From Clostridium sp. (GTDB lineage Bacteria; Bacillota; Clostridia; Clostridiales; Clostridiaceae): a stretch of 35,331 nt of DNA. Positions 27,045-35,331 of this stretch are shown piece after piece. A model generated the notes under the pieces. The model had not been told where the DNA came from. It saw only the letters and a list, made by a program, of their open reading frames with translations, and did not search any database. Position numbers and translations under genes: made by a program. How positions within the stretch are numbered: position 1 is the first letter of the stretch; each line of letters opens with the position of its first letter. Location of the stretch: assembly GCA_031292145.1 (NCBI GenBank), contig JARLHR010000015.1, forward strand, positions 1-35,331. Direction: 5' to 3'.

Positions 27045-27127
27045 TTAGGCATACGAAAGAAAATAACAAGTCAAAGATGTGGAATATGCACGCATACTAG
27101 CCTATTATTTTTTTTGATTGTGCCTTA
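27045..27127. repeat. Deleted copy (D) of the TTAGGCAC repeat
   Basis: An 83-bp element with ends TTAGGCATACGAAAGAAAAT and TTTTTTGATTGTGCCTTA. It keeps the outer ~35 bp of each end of the long copies (CAAAGATG on the left, GCATACTAG on the right) but lacks the folded core. It lies 34 bp upstream of the promoter of the DUF2325 gene. Confidence 0.8.
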
Positions 27128-27823: not shown

Positions 27824-27988
27824 TTAGGCACATGAAATAAAATAACAAGTCCAAATCTGACATGAATATTTTTCATTAGGCAAGGAGGCAAAATGCCATC
27901 ATAGCGGGCCTATTATGGTATTTTGCCGACGCAGGACAATGGAAAATATTCTGACAGATGGACTTGTTATTTTTTTGAATGTGCCTTA
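27824..27988. repeat. Long copy (B) of the TTAGGCAC MITE-like repeat
   Basis: 165 bp from TTAGGCACATGAAATAAAAT to TTTTTTGAATGTGCCTTA. Nested helices: outer AATAACAAGTCC/GGACTTGTTATT plus AAATCTG/CAGA; middle AATATTTTTCATT (27865-27877) with AATGGAAAATATT (27938-27950); inner GGCAAAATGCCA with TGGTATTTTGCC. Loop CATAGCGGGCCTATTA (27900-27915), plus AAGGA and GACGCAG between middle and inner helices. It starts 8 bp after the helicase stop codon and may also terminate that transcript. No open frame. Confidence 0.9.
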
Positions 27989-27995
27989 TATACAA

Positions 27996-30900
27996 TTATG
28001 AAAATAACTCCATAAGTTCCTCTTTAGAAAGGGATGAAAGCATATTTTCACTTTGATAATCACTATCAAGAACATCACTTATGAGTTTCTTTTTATTTTC
28101 CTGTAAATTTATGATTTTCTCTTCTATTGTTCCTTCTGAAATCAATTTAATTACTCGAACTACATTCTTTTGACCAATTCTATGAGCTCTATCTGTTGCT
28201 TGATCTTGAACTGCTGGATTCCACCATGGATCAAAATGTATTATAACATCAGCAGAGGTTAAATTAAGCCCAGTACCGCCTGCTTTTAATGAAATTAGAA
28301 ATACCTTTTTTTCATTGCTATTATTAAATTCATCTACAAGTTGCAATCTTTCACTTGCTTTTGTACTTCCGTCTAAATACATATGCTCTATTTTATTTCT
28401 TAATAATTCTTGAGATATATTATTAAGAACAGATGTAAACTGTGAAAATAGAAGGATTTTATGACTATTTCCTATATTCTCTTCAATAAGATTCAATGTT
28501 TCTTTTATTTTTCCACTTCCGCCTTTATAATCATCTACTACTATAGATGGATCTAAACATAACTGTCTAAGTTTCGTTAAATAAGAAAATATCGTTATCT
28601 TATTTCCTTCAAAATTTTCATCGTCCATTTTCTCTTTAATATCTTTTACATATGCAGAATATACTTTCTTTTGATTTTTCGTAAGTTCAACATAATAGTT
28701 TTTTTCAATTTTATCAGGTAATTCTTTAATAACCTCTTTCTTTAAACGCCTAAGCATAAAAGGCCTTATATATTTTTGAAGTTCAATTGTGGTTTCATTG
28801 TTACTTATAAACTTCTTCTTAAATGTAGCTCCATTATATAAATAATTCGGCATAATAAAGTCAAAAATACTCCATAGTTCAATCAAGTTATTTTCAATAG
28901 GAGTTCCTGTTAATACAAATTTACTTTTTGCATTGATATTTTTAACACTCTTTGTACTTTGAGCTAATGGATTTTTTATATTTTGACCTTCATCAAGTAT
29001 ACAATAATCAAAATTTAATTTTTCATAGCTTTCTTCGTCATTTCTAAAAGTACCATAAGTAGTTAATATAACATCATATTCAGCTATATTTTCTATGATT
29101 TTATCCCTATCATTTTTATTTCCATGAATAACACATACCTTCATAGATGGAGCAAATTTAAAAAATTCATTTTTCCAATTGTACACTAATGATGTAGGGG
29201 CAATTATTATAGACTTTTTATCCTTCTCAGAAAGTAAAAATGCAATAGTTTGAACTGTTTTTCCAAGCCCCATTTCATCGGCTAACACTCCACCAAAACC
29301 TAAATAACTTAAATTTTTAAACCATTTAAAACCAGTGATTTGATAATCTCTTAATTGAGTTTTTAAATCATCAGGCAGAGTGTATTCAAAATTATTAAGA
29401 TCTAAAATCTTATTTGAAATATCTTCAACAATATTTTTACCTTTTACAAAAGCCATATTATTATTTTCAAAATAGTCATTTAAAACAAAAGCTTTATTTT
29501 TGTGAAATTTTATTTTTCCTTCTTTACTACTGCCAGCAATGCTGTCAATTAAAGTAAGCAAATCTTTAATTTCTTCCCCTTCAAGATTTATAAAACTATT
29601 ATCTTTAAGCTTATAATATTTTCTTTTATTATTAAATGCTTCTAAGATATCCTTATATTCTTTAGGAGATATATCATCAATTTCAAAGGAAAAATCTAAA
29701 AATCCATCGTCATTATCTTTGATGTCTGCTTGAATTCTAGGAGTATAGTAAACTTTTCTATCTTTAAATCTATCTGAATAATAAACATCCCCTATTGATT
29801 CAAGTTCCTTATATTTATTGGCAAGAAACAAATATAAGACATATTCATCGCCATTAAATTCAAATATATTATTTCCATAAGAAAAATTAAGATCAGTTAA
29901 AATATTTAAAATTTTTTCTTCTTTATTAGTATCACGAATTATAATTTTATTTTTATTCTCTGTATTAGAAAAATATTTTAATTTCTCTTCACCATATATT
30001 AAGTTTACATCTAGTATTACTTTGTTCTTTCTTATATCTAAAAAGAATTCAGCTTTTAGGTCATTTTTTACTATATTATCAATCTTATCATCTATTTTAA
30101 TATTAGAACTTATATTTTCTAATTTAGGCATTACTTCATTAAACATATCTAAAGCTGATTCTTTTTTAAATTCCAACCTTTTAAATTCTTCAAAATATTT
30201 ATAAAATAACTTAAGACTCTGTATTTGTGATTTTGAAGGTAAGTAAATATTATTATCAAAGAGAAAAACATCGTATCTGTTGCTAATTGGCTTAAAAGAC
30301 TCACCAATTATTTTTACAATATATTTTTCATTCTTTTCACTAATATCAATTTCAAAAGGAATATCGTCTTCTATAATTTTCACTTTTTGTGAATTATATA
30401 TTATCCTTTTTTCTTTTAACATATGTAAAAATCGTCTAAGAGATAAATCATTAATATTTAAATACTTCCCATCAACTAAACCACTACTATACCTTTGTAT
30501 TTCATCATTAGCCGCAAATTCTTCAATAAAATCAATTATATTTTCATCTATTTCATTGAATATATGTTCCTTGGGGCAATATGTAAAATCTTTTCCATAT
30601 TCAATATTATTATTTTCAGCCCTTGCTTTTATAAAATCTTTTATATTTTTTAATACATACATTTTTTTATTTCCAATTTTAAATTCTGCTTGAAAACACT
30701 TATCAAATCTTTTAGGACTTAAACTTACATCTAAGTTGACTTTTTCCTTTGGAGATTTTAGGGCTGCAAGTTTACTTAATATATCAGCTCCCATATTTTC
30801 AACTTTCTTTTTACTTTCTTCATTTTTGGCTATTCTTAATGATATGTATTTAGACAAAGCTGCAGCTATATGCTTACACATATACTTATTACTTTGAGTT

Positions 30901-31166
30901 GAATGATTTTTATAATCTAAACATTCACAATAGGTTTCTTCTATTGTACTTGTATTTCCATCTACTAATATATGAACTTCATAATAATCGCAATTTCTTT
31001 GTGATAATACAATAGAACCAATATCTATTAAATCATACTCCCTATCTACCTCTTCTTTTAAACTCTTTATTTTCCCTAATCTAATTAATTCATTTCCCTT
31101 CTGCTTTGTATAAAATTGAATTTTATTTTCAAAGTCCTCAGATAATTTTTTTATATTAAAATTCAT
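27996..31166 (-). CDS. SNF2-family helicase with SWIM zinc finger
   Basis: A 1056-aa DNA-dependent ATPase. The N-terminus bears a SWIM zinc finger (CEC...MCKHIAAAL: Cys80, Cys82, Cys97, His99). A long SNF2-associated region follows (about 130-600), then the two RecA lobes. Lobe 1 has LADEMGLGKTVQT (about 622-635), the DEGQ box (about 725) and LTGTPIEN. Lobe 2 has LLFSQFTSVLNN and DPWWNPAVQDQATDRAHRIG (about 975-995). Proteins of this build are widespread in Firmicutes and probably remodel DNA-protein or RNA polymerase complexes; the exact role is unknown. AAAGGA is 13 nt before the ATG, a weak site. It is monocistronic, with a MITE-like repeat directly at the 3' end. Confidence 0.93.
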   Translation of the reverse strand: MNFNIKKLSEDFENKIQFYTKQKGNELIRLGKIKSLKEEVDREYDLIDIGSIVLSQRNCDYYEVHILVDGNTSTIEETYCECLDYKNHSTQSNKYMCKHIAAALSKYISLRIAKNEESKKKVENMGADILSKLAALKSPKEKVNLDVSLSPKRFDKCFQAEFKIGNKKMYVLKNIKDFIKARAENNNIEYGKDFTYCPKEHIFNEIDENIIDFIEEFAANDEIQRYSSGLVDGKYLNINDLSLRRFLHMLKEKRIIYNSQKVKIIEDDIPFEIDISEKNEKYIVKIIGESFKPISNRYDVFLFDNNIYLPSKSQIQSLKLFYKYFEEFKRLEFKKESALDMFNEVMPKLENISSNIKIDDKIDNIVKNDLKAEFFLDIRKNKVILDVNLIYGEEKLKYFSNTENKNKIIIRDTNKEEKILNILTDLNFSYGNNIFEFNGDEYVLYLFLANKYKELESIGDVYYSDRFKDRKVYYTPRIQADIKDNDDGFLDFSFEIDDISPKEYKDILEAFNNKRKYYKLKDNSFINLEGEEIKDLLTLIDSIAGSSKEGKIKFHKNKAFVLNDYFENNNMAFVKGKNIVEDISNKILDLNNFEYTLPDDLKTQLRDYQITGFKWFKNLSYLGFGGVLADEMGLGKTVQTIAFLLSEKDKKSIIIAPTSLVYNWKNEFFKFAPSMKVCVIHGNKNDRDKIIENIAEYDVILTTYGTFRNDEESYEKLNFDYCILDEGQNIKNPLAQSTKSVKNINAKSKFVLTGTPIENNLIELWSIFDFIMPNYLYNGATFKKKFISNNETTIELQKYIRPFMLRRLKKEVIKELPDKIEKNYYVELTKNQKKVYSAYVKDIKEKMDDENFEGNKITIFSYLTKLRQLCLDPSIVVDDYKGGSGKIKETLNLIEENIGNSHKILLFSQFTSVLNNISQELLRNKIEHMYLDGSTKASERLQLVDEFNNSNEKKVFLISLKAGGTGLNLTSADVIIHFDPWWNPAVQDQATDRAHRIGQKNVVRVIKLISEGTIEEKIINLQENKKKLISDVLDSDYQSENMLSSLSKEELMELFS

Positions 31167-31205
31167 ACTTTAATTCAATTCCTTTATCATTTTTCTTTCA
31201 ATATG

Positions 31206-31280
31206 TTGCAATTATCAATTGATAGTTAAATTCTCAAATAATTTCATCCTTCATTGTGAATTACCAATTGTTAATTACAA
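31206..31280. repeat. Inverted repeat upstream of the helicase gene
   Basis: TTGCAATTATCAATTGATAG on the left and GGTAATTAACAATTGG-like sequence on the right (read as complement of 31258-31280) form imperfect 23-bp arms around AAATTATTT. It may be a small dispersed repeat or part of the helicase leader. Nothing else gene-like occurs in 31167-31572 apart from two hairpins. Confidence 0.45.
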
Positions 31281-31385
31281 TATATATTATTGACCATTTA
31301 ATAGTAATAATTGCATTTTGAGCACAATCAAAAAAACAATACACAACATACTAATCTATTAATTTCTTAATTATTAGTATAGCAT

Positions 31386-31432
31386 AAATAAAGCTGAAAT
31401 TTTTACAATAATCAAAACTCCAGCTTTATTTT
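31386..31432. terminator. Hairpin AAATAAAGCTG/CAGCTTTATTTT
   Basis: Eleven-bp stem with a 24-nt loop, between the small gene and the helicase gene. It is a second terminator-like structure in tandem with 31472-31513. Confidence 0.5.
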
Positions 31433-31471
31433 AAAACTATATTTTTCAATCTTTTATATGGTAAGTAAATC

Positions 31472-31513
31472 AAGAAAAGACTAGTTACTTAAATTTTGTA
31501 ACTAATCTTTCTT
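31472..31513 (-). terminator. Terminator after the 51-aa gene
   Basis: AAGAAAAGACTAGTTAC pairs with GTAACTAATCTTTCTT (one mismatch or bulge). On the minus strand it ends in TTTTCTT. It lies 60 bp beyond the stop codon of the small gene. Confidence 0.6.
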
Positions 31514-31572
31514 AAATATTAATAAGTATAATTTATTATTTAATTTTAGTATTTTGAATTTTTCATATTCTT

Positions 31573-31728
31573 TTATCCTTTTCCAACTACTCCACCTTTT
31601 TTCCCCTTGCCTTTATCTTTATTATTAGGATAACCAATTTCTGAAATATTCTCAGTTGCTCCACCGCTTGTGTCTTTTCTTTTTCCAGACACTAAATTTC
31701 TGTTAGATTCACTATGATTTAAAGACAT
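31573..31728 (-). CDS. Small hydrophilic protein, 51 aa, unknown function
   Basis: An unannotated-size gene encoding a 51-aa peptide that begins MSLNHSESNRNLVSGKRKDT and ends in a Lys/Gly-rich tail (DKGKGKKGGVVGKG). It is supported by a strong GGAGGTG ribosome binding site 7-8 nt before the ATG, a terminator 60 bp downstream and a gene-free setting. It has no hydrophobic segment, no signal peptide and no cysteine. The charged, Gly-rich, low-complexity composition suggests a disordered nucleic-acid- or spore-associated protein, but that is a guess. I do not recognise a family. Confidence 0.7.
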   Translation of the reverse strand: MSLNHSESNRNLVSGKRKDTSGGATENISEIGYPNNKDKGKGKKGGVVGKG

Positions 31729-31952
31729 ATTGATCTACACCTCCATTTATTATAATTTTGTTTGCAGTAATATATTAACCATTATCATAAATTATAATCT
31801 CAAGAAATGTTATGATAAATTAATGCGAATTATTTCTCAAATTATTTACTAGTTTATATACCTTACAAACATCGCTTATTTCATTAAAGATATCTTAATT
31901 ACAATAACGTTCGTGTTTATTTAAAAATAATACTAACAATTTAATTTTTTTA

Positions 31953-31981
31953 TTGATTTTTTATTATATTTAAGCTAAAAT
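31953..31981 (+). promoter_or_regulatory. Promoter of the riboswitch-FAD dehydrogenase unit
   Basis: TTGATT (31953-31958), 17 bp, TAAAAT (31976-31981). The transcript would start near 31988 and run through the riboswitch. The rest of 31729-32025 is AT-rich with no gene seen. Confidence 0.6.
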
Positions 31982-32025
31982 TACTTAGTAATCAGAACTA
32001 TTAATAAAAAAAAACAAATATTATT

Positions 32026-32099
32026 CACTTGTATAAATTCAACGATATGGGTTGAATGTTTCTACCAAGCTGCCGTAAATTGCTATAGGACTATAAGTG
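32026..32099 (+). promoter_or_regulatory. Purine (guanine-type) riboswitch aptamer
   Basis: All core parts of the purine riboswitch are present: P1 CACTTGTA (32026-32033) with TATAAGTG (32092-32099), J1/2 TAA, P2 ATTCAAC/GTTGAAT closing loop L2 GATATGG, J2/3 GTTTCTAC, L3 CCGTAAA, and J3/1 AC. The specificity base is C (32091), which selects guanine/hypoxanthine rather than adenine. P3 is unusual: CCAAGC pairs with GCTATAGG only if two adenines bulge out. The ATG of the FAD dehydrogenase is just 42 nt after P1, and no terminator stem is visible between them, so control may be translational. Confidence 0.92.
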
Positions 32100-32140
32100 T
32101 CTGCTAACTAAATTATATTTAATATCAAGGAGAGATAAGA

Positions 32141-33535
32141 ATGAATTATGATGTAATAATAGTAGGTGCTGGTCCCGCAGGAATATTTACTGCATATGAA
32201 CTAAAGAAACAGAAACCCCAATCTAAAATTCTATTAATTGAATCAGGAAAAAGTATTGATAAAAGGCATTGTCCAAAAGATAAAACTAAAAAGTGTGTAT
32301 CTTGTAAGCCTTATTGCCATATTACTACTGGATTTTCTGGTGCAGGGGCATTTTCAGACGGAAAGTTGTCACTAAGCTATGAAGTCGGTGGAGACTTACC
32401 TGAACTTGCAGGTGCTGATTTTGTACAAGAATACATAGATTATACAGATTCAATTTATTTAGGTTTTGGTGCAGATACCAAAGTTGAAGGTATAGGACAT
32501 AATGAAGCAGTTAAAGAAATAAGAAGAAAAGCTATTCAAGGTGGATTAAAATTAGTAGATTGTCCAATCAGACATTTAGGAACTGAAAAGGCACAAGAAA
32601 TATATTTAAAAATTCAAAATCATTTATTAAATAATGGTGTTGAAATTAAATTTGATACAACAGTAAAAAATCTTTTAATTAAAAATGATGAAATATATGG
32701 AGTACTAATAACAGATTCATTAACTAGAAGTAATGATGAAGAAATGCTTTCAAACAAAGTAGTTGTTGCAACGGGCAGAAAAGGTGCGGATTGGTTAAAA
32801 GAAATGTGCATTAAACATAATATAAAACATAGCGCTGGCCCAGTTGACATTGGAGTTCGAGTAGAACTTAGAAATGAAGTAATGGATAGTGTAAATAATG
32901 TACTTTATGAATCTAAGCTTATAGGTCATCCGGCTCCATTTAAAGATAAAGTTAGAACTTTCTGTCAAAATCCTGGTGGTTTTGTAAGTCAAGAAAATTA
33001 TGATAATAATTTAGCAATAGTTAATGGACATTCGTACAAAGATAAAAAATCAGAAAATACTAATTTAGCAATATTAAGTTCTCATAATTTTTCAGAGCCT
33101 TTTAATGAACCTATTGAATATGGTCAAAAGGTTGCAGAACTAGTGAATATGCTTGGAAATGGTAAAATATTAGTTCAAAGATATGGTGATATCTTAGATG
33201 GTAAAAGGACATGGGAACATGAATTATATGAATCTAATGTAAGACATACGCTGCCAGATGCAGAAGCAGGAGATTTAACATCTGCAATTCCGTATAGAAC
33301 AATGACAAATATATTAAACTTTATTCAGGCAATGGATACTGTAGTTCCAGGTTTTGCAAGTACAGAAACATTGTTATATGGTCCGGAAATTAAGTTTTAC
33401 AGTAATAGAATTAATTTAGATAAAAACTTTGAAACAAATATTAAAGGCTTACATTGTTTAGGCGATTCAAGCGGTTGGACTAGAGGATTGATGATGGCAT
33501 CAGCAATGGGTGTAATCATGGGAAGAAAACTTTAA
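32141..33535 (+). CDS. COG2509 FAD-dependent dehydrogenase
   Basis: A 464-aa flavoprotein of unknown reaction. The Rossmann dinucleotide motif VGAGPAGIFTAYEL (8-21) binds FAD, with the acidic residue of strand 2 in LLIESGK. The FAD-end motif GLHCLGDSSGWTRGLMMASA is near the C-terminus. A four-cysteine cluster RHCPKDKTKKCVSCKPYC (Cys44, 52, 55, 59), typical of this group, could hold metal or a redox disulfide. AAGGAGAG precedes the ATG. Expression is predicted to follow guanine or hypoxanthine through the upstream riboswitch, which points to a link with purine, flavin or nucleotide metabolism. A strong terminator follows. Confidence 0.88.
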   Translation: MNYDVIIVGAGPAGIFTAYELKKQKPQSKILLIESGKSIDKRHCPKDKTKKCVSCKPYCHITTGFSGAGAFSDGKLSLSYEVGGDLPELAGADFVQEYIDYTDSIYLGFGADTKVEGIGHNEAVKEIRRKAIQGGLKLVDCPIRHLGTEKAQEIYLKIQNHLLNNGVEIKFDTTVKNLLIKNDEIYGVLITDSLTRSNDEEMLSNKVVVATGRKGADWLKEMCIKHNIKHSAGPVDIGVRVELRNEVMDSVNNVLYESKLIGHPAPFKDKVRTFCQNPGGFVSQENYDNNLAIVNGHSYKDKKSENTNLAILSSHNFSEPFNEPIEYGQKVAELVNMLGNGKILVQRYGDILDGKRTWEHELYESNVRHTLPDAEAGDLTSAIPYRTMTNILNFIQAMDTVVPGFASTETLLYGPEIKFYSNRINLDKNFETNIKGLHCLGDSSGWTRGLMMASAMGVIMGRKL

Positions 33536-33545
33536 TATATATTAC

Positions 33546-33593
33546 AAGTAGAGAAAGAGGCTGTTGCAAATTGAACAGCCTTTTTCTCTACTT
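33546..33593 (+). terminator. Terminator of the FAD dehydrogenase gene
   Basis: AAGTAGAGAAAGAGGCTGTT pairs with AACAGCCTTTTTCTCTACTT, a 20-bp stem with one mismatch and an 8-nt loop, 11 bp after the stop codon. The facing binding-protein gene ends 44 bp further, so it may serve both. Confidence 0.85.
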
Positions 33594-33636
33594 ATTAACT
33601 TTTGATTTAAGATCCACCCTGGTATAAGGCACAAAT

Positions 33637-34677
33637 CTAGTCATATAAATTATTCAGTATTGCTTGTTGATAAACTGATAAATCAGGAGAAGATTTTATT
33701 ACATTATTACTTGCCAAATAATCCCCAGTATCTTTTAATATTTTAGCCAATTCTCCTGGATTGTTTTTGGTTCCAATATATTTTGGATTAGTTTGATCCT
33801 TTGCATCTAGTACAGTTACTTCATACATAAGTCTAAGAGTTTCATCTGTTGGTAAACCAAGCTCTTTGGAAAGTGCTGCTGCTGATTCTTGTCGGTTATT
33901 TCTATATTGGTGAACAGAATCATTTAACACTGAAATATAAGCTTTAAGAAAATTCGGATATTTACTTGCAAAATCATTTTGAACAATTCCAACTTCCCCT
34001 GTAATAGCTCCTTGTTTAGCTAAATCAGCAGATGTAATAAGAACTTTTCCGCCTTCTGACACTAACCTTGATTTAGTTGGTTCCCATGCATAAGCTCCAT
34101 CAATTTCATACCTTTCCCATGCTGTACTTATATCAGGCATTTTCATATCAATGATAGTTACATCATTGGGATTAATTTTATTTAATTTTAATGCATTTAT
34201 TAAACTAAAGTGAGAAGTTGAATTAAAAGTAGTTGCTATCTTTTTACCTTTCAAATCACTAATTGAATTTATTCCTGAATCTTTTTTAACTACAAGTGCC
34301 TCGCTATCTCCTATAATATCATCAATATAATATACTTTATAAGGTAAGTTATTGGCTATTCCTAATGCAGCAGGAGGAGTGCCAATGGTTCCCATATCTA
34401 TTAAACCCTCAGATAAAGCTTCAATTATTTCCTGTCCACTATTGAATTCTTCCCAGTAAACCTTAGTATTGGCGAATTTCTTTTCAACAGCTCCATTAGC
34501 TTTTGCCAATAATTCACCATTGGGTGAGACTATATATCCAATTCTAACTTGGTTTGGTAAACTATTATTATTCTTTTGCCAGGCTTCTATACTTTCATTG
34601 CTTTTAGGGTTAAATACTGTCATAAATACCATTATCCCTAATATAATAAAACTTATAAAAAAAATTTTTTTTCTCAT
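33637..34677 (-). CDS. ABC transporter substrate-binding protein, TauA/SsuA (NitT/TauT) family
   Basis: A 346-aa extracellular binding protein of the nitrate/sulfonate/taurine class. After a basic start and one hydrophobic segment (5-20) there is no lipobox cysteine, so it is either cleaved and released or kept by an uncleaved anchor. VRIGYIVSPNGELLAKANG, GLIDMGTIGTPPAALGIAN and IDGAYAWEPTKSRLVSEGGK are family hallmarks; the YAWEPT stretch is closest to TauA-like proteins. Taurine or another sulfonate is a likely ligand. No permease or ATPase gene adjoins it in the window. The ribosome binding site (ACGGGT) is weak, and a MITE-like repeat ends 36 bp before the ATG. Confidence 0.85.
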   Translation of the reverse strand: MRKKIFFISFIILGIMVFMTVFNPKSNESIEAWQKNNNSLPNQVRIGYIVSPNGELLAKANGAVEKKFANTKVYWEEFNSGQEIIEALSEGLIDMGTIGTPPAALGIANNLPYKVYYIDDIIGDSEALVVKKDSGINSISDLKGKKIATTFNSTSHFSLINALKLNKINPNDVTIIDMKMPDISTAWERYEIDGAYAWEPTKSRLVSEGGKVLITSADLAKQGAITGEVGIVQNDFASKYPNFLKAYISVLNDSVHQYRNNRQESAAALSKELGLPTDETLRLMYEVTVLDAKDQTNPKYIGTKNNPGELAKILKDTGDYLASNNVIKSSPDLSVYQQAILNNLYD

Positions 34678-34712
34678 TATTTACCCGTTATATAAATCTA
34701 CCAAAGGCAAAT

Positions 34713-34875
34713 TTAGGCACATGAAAGAAAATAATAGACCAAAGATGCGACGTATATTTCGTGTCAGACAAGGAAGTAAATTCAGCTCATAGCGGGCCTA
34801 TTAGCCGAATTTACTGACGCAGTATGACGCGAAATAGATGAGCATACTGATCTATTATTTTTTGAATGTGCCTTA
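34713..34875. repeat. Long copy (A) of the TTAGGCAC MITE-like repeat
   Basis: 163 bp from TTAGGCACATGAAAGAAAAT to TTTTTTGAATGTGCCTTA. Outer helix AATAATAGA/TCTATTATT; middle helix TATTTCGTGTCA (34755-34766) with TGACGCGAAATA (34825-34836); inner helix AGTAAATTC with GAATTTACT. Invariant loop CATAGCGGGCCTATTA (34788-34803), AAGGA (34770-34774) and CTGACGCAG (34814-34822). It sits in the leader region of the binding-protein gene. Read on the minus strand, an AAGGAAGGTGAG ribosome-binding-like sequence lies just before it. Confidence 0.92.
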
Positions 34876-35134
34876 TAACGTTCTCACCTTCCTTTATATG
34901 AAAATTGTCATCTATTTCTCATTTTTCTAATTTTTAAGCACTTTATACATAGCTTCAATAAAACTACTATACTTATTACATAAATTTTTCGTAGTTTGAT
35001 ATACAATCCGTAATGGTCTGCATTTATATAAATAGAATGTTCTTTTAAGACTACTTTTATGCAGACGATTCTCCATTTCCAATATTCACCAGCTTTTTAT
35101 GTGTATTACAGCATGAATTTGCATAAAATAATTA
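34876..35134. other. Gene-free spacer with a hairpin
   Basis: No gene seen. GTCTGCAT (35016-35023) and ATGCAGAC (35059-35066) form an inverted repeat with a small inner TCTTTTAAGA stem. Any promoter for the binding-protein gene should lie here; none could be assigned firmly. Confidence 0.45.
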
Positions 35135-35170
35135 AAGCCGAGATTTTCTAAATATAGAAAATCTCAGCTT
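35135..35170 (-). terminator. Terminator of a gene beyond the right edge
   Basis: AAGCCGAGATTTTCTA pairs with TAGAAAATCTCAGCTT (one mismatch, 4-nt loop). On the minus strand a T-rich exit (CTTTAATTATTTT) follows, which suggests it ends a minus-strand gene lying to the right of the window. Confidence 0.65.
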
Positions 35171-35191
35171 ATAAAATTATGCCCATTACCT

Positions 35192-35331
35192 TAGGCACAT
35201 GAAAGAAAATAACAAGTCCAAAATGCCATGATTATTTTTCATCATACAAGGAAACAGATTGATCTCATAGCGGGCCTATTAGGACAATCTGCTGACGCAG
35301 TATGATGGAAAATAGGCACATTAGAAAAGAG
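35192..35331. repeat. Long copy (C) of the TTAGGCAC MITE-like repeat, cut by the window end
   Basis: Starts TTAGGCACATGAAAGAAAAT. Middle helix TATTTTTCATCATAC (35233-35247) with GTATGATGGAAAATA (35300-35314); inner helix CAGATTG with CAATCTG (35255-35261, 35285-35291). Loop CATAGCGGGCCTATTA at 35266-35281, with AAGGA and CTGACGCAG conserved. The right terminus is not reached before the window ends. Confidence 0.88.

Follow-up and report, generated by a model that had tools for sequence, protein, structure and literature searches.

Transposons of the IS5 and PIF-Harbinger-like groups prefer TWA (or YTAR) targets, CTAG being a related one. In Streptococcus pneumoniae, BOX elements carry optional inner modules, and the omega RNAs of IS200/IS605 and IStron elements are conserved RNA folds carried by mobile elements that make no target duplication and lack terminal inverted repeats. 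No ordinary MITE is known to us in which elements with different ends share an RNA-like core. In the Bacillus cereus group, bcr1 is entered at 167 bp and 31 copies in a table of PMC2267715, a table in which BOX also appears. PMC6542083 gives up to 130 integral copies of BCR repeats per genome, ties bcr mobility to TTTAT motifs and describes the family as confined to the B. cereus group.

The element analysed here resembles the bcr1/BCR repeats in being a dispersed structured repeat of similar size and mobile behaviour. Going by the published descriptions, it is set apart from them by its duplication of TWA, its flanks being TWA triplets rather than TTTAT, and by its occurrence across Clostridiaceae and further families within the phylum. 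It shares with MITEs of IS5 / PIF-Harbinger-like transposons a short, non-coding sequence (165 bp with flanks), terminal inverted repeats and TWA target sites, seen as TWA duplications; unlike them, it had no autonomous element with these ends among the end matches listed. BOX elements are likewise dispersed structured repeats, differing, by description only, in host, sequence and ends. The element is comparable to IS200/IS605 and IStrons in having a conserved RNA-like fold aboard a mobile element, but it has both a target duplication and terminal inverted repeats, and its core is central. A Rfam 15 search of the whole window (the complete stretch of DNA analysed, 35,331 nucleotides) gave a purine riboswitch elsewhere as its sole match and nothing on the element, and permissive searches (one window stretch, 8 and 16 loci) gave none on the element at gathering score. 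The comparison proposed in the initial annotation thus matched the element to no Rfam family. No description of it was found in the literature searched, which is weak evidence, as subscription journals were mostly outside the scope of the search.

A 165-bp inverted-repeat element flanked by a duplicated TWA occurs four times in the window, as three long copies and a short one that lacks the core:

27045-27127, plus strand: short core-less copy with inverted ends, a short middle and TTA on either side (from sequence and repeat families D2, D6 and D9)
27824-27988, plus strand: full copy 1, including the TTA duplication at 27824-27826 and 27986-27988 (from sequence and inverted arms)
27865-27949, plus strand: structured core of copy 1 (covariance model R1, 94.3 bits)
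34713-34875, plus strand: full copy 2, including the TTA duplication at 34713-34715 and 34873-34875 (from sequence)
34753-34837, plus strand: structured core of copy 2 (covariance model R1, 104.5 bits)
35191-35331, plus strand: copy 3, starting with TTA and truncated by the contig end (from sequence)
35231-35315, plus strand: structured core of copy 3 (covariance model R1, 99.9 bits)

The initial annotation had placed the copies correctly, with the TTA flanks of copies 1 and 2 inside their ranges; it gave 35192 for the start of copy 3, whose TTA begins at 35191. The cores of all three long copies were recovered by the covariance model; the short core-less copy comes as a fourth in addition to them. 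The 31-nt arms of copy 1 are 87% complementary, and the loop CATAGCGGGCCTATTA occurs 3 times in the window, compared with a mean of 0.16 in shuffles. By sequence, copy 3 enters an extra hairpin module (CACATTAGAAAAGAG...) near 35317, and its sequence runs on through this module at two other loci (L013 and L015).

In the core (approximately 85 nt), a lower helix is followed by an asymmetric internal loop (CAAGGA / GACGCAG), and beyond this come an inner helix and a short hairpin at the apex. Alignments were made of 40 full-length copies (A1), of 38 out of 39 distinct cores (A2; L043 was omitted because part of the element is missing) and of 88 core sequences (A4) from 84 loci, the latter restricted to matches at E 5e-10 or better, where E-values are rough. 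From a listing of 108 matches, the first 78 minus one duplicate were used (77); the remaining 30 were weaker and hit the opposite strand at the same places. Among the 38 core sequences, 96.7% of the cells were paired and 16 of the 31 pairs were altered on both sides; these both-side changes amounted to 100 cells, compared with 25 in shuffles and 2-11 when the fold was slid. Among the 88 sequences, 29 of the 31 pairs were altered on both sides. A test against a tree-aware null gave 8 significant column pairs, all of them within the fold. The helices proposed in the initial annotation therefore exist and covary, pairs being kept while bases change to an extent that exceeds the shuffled, slid and tree-aware controls, as is not expected of a merely passive repeat. 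Its further claim that single-stranded nucleotides are frozen holds for the internal loop and adjacent positions, where 10 of 11 unpaired columns were 86-99% identical and one 60% identical (88 sequences), but not for the apical loop. The latter is invariant in the host species cluster, where it also served to pick the copies, and different in other genera. Averaged over 85 columns, conservation was equal in unpaired and paired positions (1.01 and 1.03 bits respectively).

The host genome has 166 matches to the loop pattern (0 for the reversed control pattern) and at least 150 cores scored by the covariance model. Copy counts are lower bounds throughout: at least 150 in the host, 66 in the genus search, 20 in the order search and 11 in the class and phylum searches. 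From a listing of 145 host matches, 92 at 54 bits or more were kept, and 53 below 41 bits were dropped, mostly opposite-strand matches with a few perhaps decayed copies. Identical 3-bp flanks were present in 74 of 90 delimited host copies (2 of the 92 were not delimited), whereas 37.8 of 90 were expected from triplet frequencies; the triplets were TTA (41), TAA (32) and CTA (1). In a set of 62 copies drawn from several species (41 of the copies compact), flanking triplets were also identical in 56; here the end pattern required TWA with one mismatch allowed and the informative part is the agreement of TTA with TTA and of TAA with TAA. No convincing empty orthologous site was seen in a flank comparison among the matches listed, whose loci were mostly chosen for carrying a copy. 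With dispersed copies, inverted repeats and matching 3-bp flanks, the description as a MITE-like family was borne out. Core-less copies with TWA flanks also exist, and since this subfamily seems to have transposed, the core is probably dispensable for jumping. The earlier suggestion that the whole element is recognised as a folded strand for transposition found no support: the ends act as DNA inverted repeats that are strand-symmetric and flanked by TWA duplications, and the core-less subfamily apparently moved too.

The core was found well beyond the host. In the genus, 23 of 68 genomes carry it. Across the order, model R1 detected it in 60 of 225 genomes, representing 18 of 56 genera, and across the class in 32 of 391 genomes; at the level of the phylum, model R2 matched 12 of 398 genomes, and 10 of these lie outside the class. 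Several classes of the phylum have this core in elements whose ends are unrelated, the end types being GGCAY/TWA, GGGACT, CTAG and others. Elements of the CTAG type have CTAG at their boundaries; a span of 164-165 bp was found for 12 of 15 CTAG-ended pairs, and wherever checked their core begins 41 bases in, the same as in the window. Plasmids and phages gave no match to the element, and viral contigs gave one exact loop match only, with the surrounding element absent.

Next, we analysed G-U and A-C combinations at paired columns, taken for core and outer helices alike from RNA folds in which G-U is allowed and A-C is not. The core contained 92 G-U vs. 19 A-C, while the outer stems together showed hardly any excess (21 vs. 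16; 13 vs. 5 in the terminal helix and 8 vs. 11 in the subterminal helix). Core and outer helices differed (Fisher p 0.003, rows not independent), and 22 core pairs leaned toward G-U, 5 the opposite way and 4 neither way. With the excess confined largely to the core, selection seems to act on the core as a single folded strand, probably RNA, and on the ends as DNA. The wobble excess alone is no proof of RNA, since single-stranded DNA likewise tolerates G-T better than A-C.

Template switching inside a hairpin can correct an imperfect palindrome, and pairing might be kept in this way with no selection at all. The small strand asymmetry at the ends is in line with this, but strand-symmetric correction would not yield the ratio in the core, nor would it explain why many genera retain a recognisable internal loop that is unpaired; wobble asymmetry and conserved loop together largely refute this explanation, which we regard as extremely improbable. 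It is unlikely, to a clearly lesser degree, that the strand folds as single-stranded DNA, with a core hairpin extruded in replication and recognised by a transposase or replication factor. Here the asymmetry indicates single-strand selection that fits DNA as well as RNA, and two orientation biases point the same way. In four complete genomes, 43 of 62 listed copies are oriented against replication (p 0.003), with one genome driving the result (24 of 32); the first ORF was read as dnaA and the terminus assumed half-way, two of the six genomes taken (G029 and G004) having been dropped because dnaA was not visible at the start of their contigs. On the G-rich strand lay 35 of 92 host copies (p 0.03), but other Clostridiaceae showed no such bias (38 of 76), and among named 8-kb loci it fell short of significance (11 of 32, p 0.11). 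Moreover, the inverted repeats and duplications resemble those of a double-stranded DNA transposon, and copies of the core-less subfamily have apparently moved.

An element that terminates transcription both ways or insulates, its fold kept since copies terminating stray transcription would do the host no harm, is a slightly less likely alternative. Six full copies folded as RNA gave long predicted hairpins (-66.7 to -81.5 kcal/mol), a T run follows the stem at copy ends, divergent promoter regions are avoided (4 of 86 copies vs. 24 of 106 background gaps, p 0.0004; 6 of the 92 copies had no gene on one side) and none of 86 host copies was spanned by an ORF of 80 aa or more. However, a terminator does not need a fixed internal loop such as the one conserved here, and the terminator-like stem is the terminal repeat, present in core-less copies too. 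The regulatory cassette considered in the initial annotation, if read in a single fixed direction, found no support, as 26 copies were sense and 39 antisense to neighbouring genes. Selection on the host for a useful regulatory RNA spread by MITEs, for instance a small RNA sequestering a protein, would fit the high copy number in many genera and a core that stays while ends differ. We consider it very unlikely: the distribution within the order is patchy, orientation relative to genes is not significant, and recurrent neighbours are weak evidence, since the ORF clusters (the biggest spanning 21 loci) are unannotated.

Our reading is that the element is a non-autonomous DNA transposon (MITE) of approximately 159 bp plus a 3-bp TWA duplication, with an undescribed structured putative RNA. 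That it is a mobile terminal-inverted-repeat element whose core is selected as a putative folded RNA is, on balance, the probable explanation, and among the options first proposed a mobile non-coding RNA, the RNA being putative, remains the best. Movement of the element would depend on a transposase that is provided in trans and acts on the inverted repeats; we take the target sites to resemble those of IS5/PIF-Harbinger-like enzymes. The core may then work as a folded RNA in transcripts passing through the element or beginning in it. A protein-binding role of the core is possible but doubtful; such a protein would most likely be bound at the internal loop, and its binding might favour the spread of the element or host tolerance of it. 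More speculatively still, an old, undescribed RNA fold may ride small DNA transposons across the phylum, kept while the ends and presumably the transposases changed, and act as a folded RNA in the life cycle of an RNA-assisted, non-autonomous element. MITEs are usually seen as ends plus filler, and in this element no part is shared as widely as the middle, which recurs in many families of the phylum with differing ends. Should the fold act as RNA, the success of a DNA transposon would be linked to a structured RNA, and one could test directly why certain MITEs become so numerous with no transposase in sight. Such repeats in other clostridial genomes can be annotated with the covariance model.

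An autonomous element with the same ends, sought as the initial annotation had advised, did not emerge as an IS-sized convergent pair among the end matches listed. In GGCAY-type genomes, these matches (22 in G018, 59 in G023, 27 in G033, 28 in G110, 4 in G139, the best 10 of 12 in G151 and none in G797, with the 4 of G931 outside the count) formed 24 pairs of up to 330 bp and five of 6.5-9.5 kb, and no convergent pair of 331-6,400 bp. The 68 matches in five CTAG-type genomes formed 16 pairs of up to 330 bp, one of them a 4-bp overlap, and no convergent pair of 331-10,000 bp. PF01609 was the one transposase family searched, in the host, and none of its six loci had a convincing own pair of element ends. 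The PF01609 locus flanked by element ends proved to be an IS4-family element sitting within a short copy, with an 8-bp repeat read on both sides. Its transposase was rejected as the mover because the protein is present in 3 of the 68 genus genomes, compared with 23 for the core. A similar end was also found in a copy at another locus (L081).

Three long copies of the inverted-repeat element lie in the window, together with a short copy that does not have the central 85-nt core, as read from the sequence:

27824-27988, + strand: copy 1, complete long element with TTA at both sides
34713-34875, + strand: copy 2, complete long element with TTA at both sides
from 35191, + strand: copy 3, long element that opens with TTA and is truncated by the contig end
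27045-27127: short copy of the element

The 16-mer apical loop of the core occurred three times in the window, compared to a mean of 0.16 in shuffled sequence. Judging by their translations, from which both ORFs were named, a putative helicase ORF (- strand) has its 3' end 8 bases from the end of copy 1, and a putative substrate-binding-protein ORF (- strand) starts 36 bases from copy 2, which begins upstream of it. A purine riboswitch (32009-32113, 74.4 bits) was found upstream of a FAD-dependent-oxidoreductase-like ORF (32141-33535), to our knowledge an unusual target.

A single long hairpin was predicted for six full copies. In the core, an asymmetric internal loop (CAAGGA / GACGCAG), with the potential for tandem G·A pairs, separates the lower from the inner helix, and an apical hairpin caps the fold. 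In 38 distinct cores, 96.7% of the cells were paired and 16 of 31 pairs had changed on both sides; cells with both-sided changes numbered 100, against a mean of 25 after shuffling and 2-11 when the structure was slid. This excess over both controls bears out the initial annotation, which had claimed that pairing is maintained while the bases change. In 88 cores, in an alignment fitted to the model and biased towards it, 93.9% of the cells were paired and both-sided changes affected 29 of 31 pairs (554 cells vs. 161 in shuffles). A tree-aware test on 77 sequences (our own procedure, which imitates R-scape but is not R-scape, reassigns inferred substitutions along the tree and does not preserve column rates in its null) gave eight significant column pairs, all eight within the fold, with 23 of the 31 fold pairs below significance. 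The conserved fold is well supported. No Rfam 15 family matched the core at the gathering score; the family is a MITE with a conserved RNA-like core.

Wobble pairs bear on which strand folds. G·U exceeded A·C by 86 to 19 in the 38 cores, whose orientation was set by the loop and not by wobbles (59 to 19 after removing one common wobble pair), and by 241 to 49 in the 88 cores; the sequences are related, so that these counts are not independent. Pair by pair, 22 leaned to G·U, five to A·C and four were equal. Counted by region in 40 full-length elements, G·U and A·C stood at 92 to 19 for the core, 13 to 5 for the terminal helix and 8 to 11 for the subterminal one. The most economical interpretation is that selection acts on the core as a single folded strand and on the ends as double-stranded DNA. 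The folded strand is likely RNA, and we infer a role for the core in that form.

With up to two mismatches allowed, the loop recurs at 166 sites in the host genome (6.34 Mb, 282 contigs) and the reversed control pattern at none; R1, the covariance model of the core, gave at least 150 matches. The loop also lies within such elements in C. beijerinckii, C. chromiireducens, C. uliginosum, C. puniceum and C. neonatale, among others, while several other exact matches (e.g. Halorubrum, Polaromonas) had no surrounding element. Matching triplets (TTA/TTA or TAA/TAA) flanked 56 of 62 delimited copies. Of 92 host copies in the genome stretches retrieved, the ends could be set for 90; 74 of these 90 had identical flanking triplets (37.8 expected from triplet frequencies). 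The host copies are akin and mostly non-identical: the 90 include no identical pair, and a same-length neighbour existed at 98% identity or more for four and at 95% or more for 34. Near-identical copies were located at contig ends (copy 3, L013, L015) and are probably under-represented in this set. The mobile nature of the family is well supported.

The core is probably not always needed for movement. Bounds agreed on both sides in nine of ten short elements read (the exception being L343), with identical TWA triplets in eight and CTAG at L351; as the selecting patterns demanded TWA or CTAG, only TTA/TAA agreement is informative. Deletion of the core after insertion would also leave the duplications, and core fragments remain in L345 and L351. 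However, L342, L344 and L347, from two species, resemble a single subfamily that has moved without a core. This apparent movement weakens the suggestion of the initial annotation that a transposase recognises the element as a folded strand. No partner transposase was found at host PF01609 loci or in convergent end pairs among the matches listed; the TWA and CTAG targets fit IS5/PIF-Harbinger-like enzymes. At L192 (987-2691), an IS4-family element is inserted within a short copy, and a similar IS end lies near position 130 of L081, at nearly the same place in the element copy, which may point to preferred insertion into the hairpin.

Host copies with genes on both sides (86, from simple ORF calls) were sense to both neighbours in 26 cases, antisense in 39 (p 0.14), in convergent gaps in 17 and in divergent gaps in four, compared to 24 divergent among 106 other gaps of at least 60 bp at the same loci (p 0.0004). 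None of the 86 lay within an ORF of at least 80 aa. Presuming that the contig start is the origin and the terminus lies half-way, 43 of 62 copies listed in four genomes (G012, G022, G013, G002) oppose replication, mainly in G012 (24/32).

R1 matched 23 of 68 genomes at genus level, 60 of 225 at order level (18 of 56 genera; all 60 within one family) and 32 of 391 at class level (20 of 222 genera; 25 of the 32 outside that family). R2, the later model from 88 cores, matched 12 of 398 genomes at phylum level (11 of 267 genera); 10 of these 12 lie beyond the class. Other genera of the family retain the ends and internal loop, and their apical loop is often GATAG...CTATC. More distant elements have other ends (ACTAATCC..., GGCAATACCGCA..., GGGACT..., CTAGTACYNTGTAAC...). 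Window-type ends in G638, a genome outside the class (L307, L319, L328), may reflect recent transfer or contamination. Elements bounded by CTAG have a longer internal loop (CAAGGCGGAGG.../...ACAACGCAG); 12 of 15 CTAG-ended pairs span 164-165 bp, and in those checked the core starts 41 bases from the left end, the same offset as in the window. Two cores in inverted orientation occupy a longer element in distant loci L288, L290, L291, L296 and L297; L302 and L306, from two distant genomes, carry closely spaced tandem cores. In distant L288, L290, L295, L303 and L304, a terminal hairpin with a TTCGACT-like loop adjoins a short terminal stem, resembling the T arm and acceptor stem of tRNA. At L290 (~1960-2240), a tRNA-like sequence seems to enclose the element, with a CAT anticodon on one side and the 5' half on the other.

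Among published repeats known to us, those nearest in kind, likened by description, are the bcr repeats of Bacillus cereus. Some copies carry an inserted hairpin module (CACATTAGAAAAGAGCAGCTATGCTGC...CTTTTCT) close to where the outer and lower helices meet, either on the 3' side or in inverted form on the 5' side, and at times self-nested (L001, L003, L005, L017 and, among L206-L283, the host copies exceeding 170 nt); its GCAGC...GCTGC signature matched 19 of the 90 delimited host copies. Two further cassettes (ACCCAAATC..GATTTGG.. and GTCCAAATCTTGTATTTGG..) add to or take the place of the 3' strand in the internal loop or inner helix (L008, L018, L019, L020, L025, L038, L055, L061, L066).
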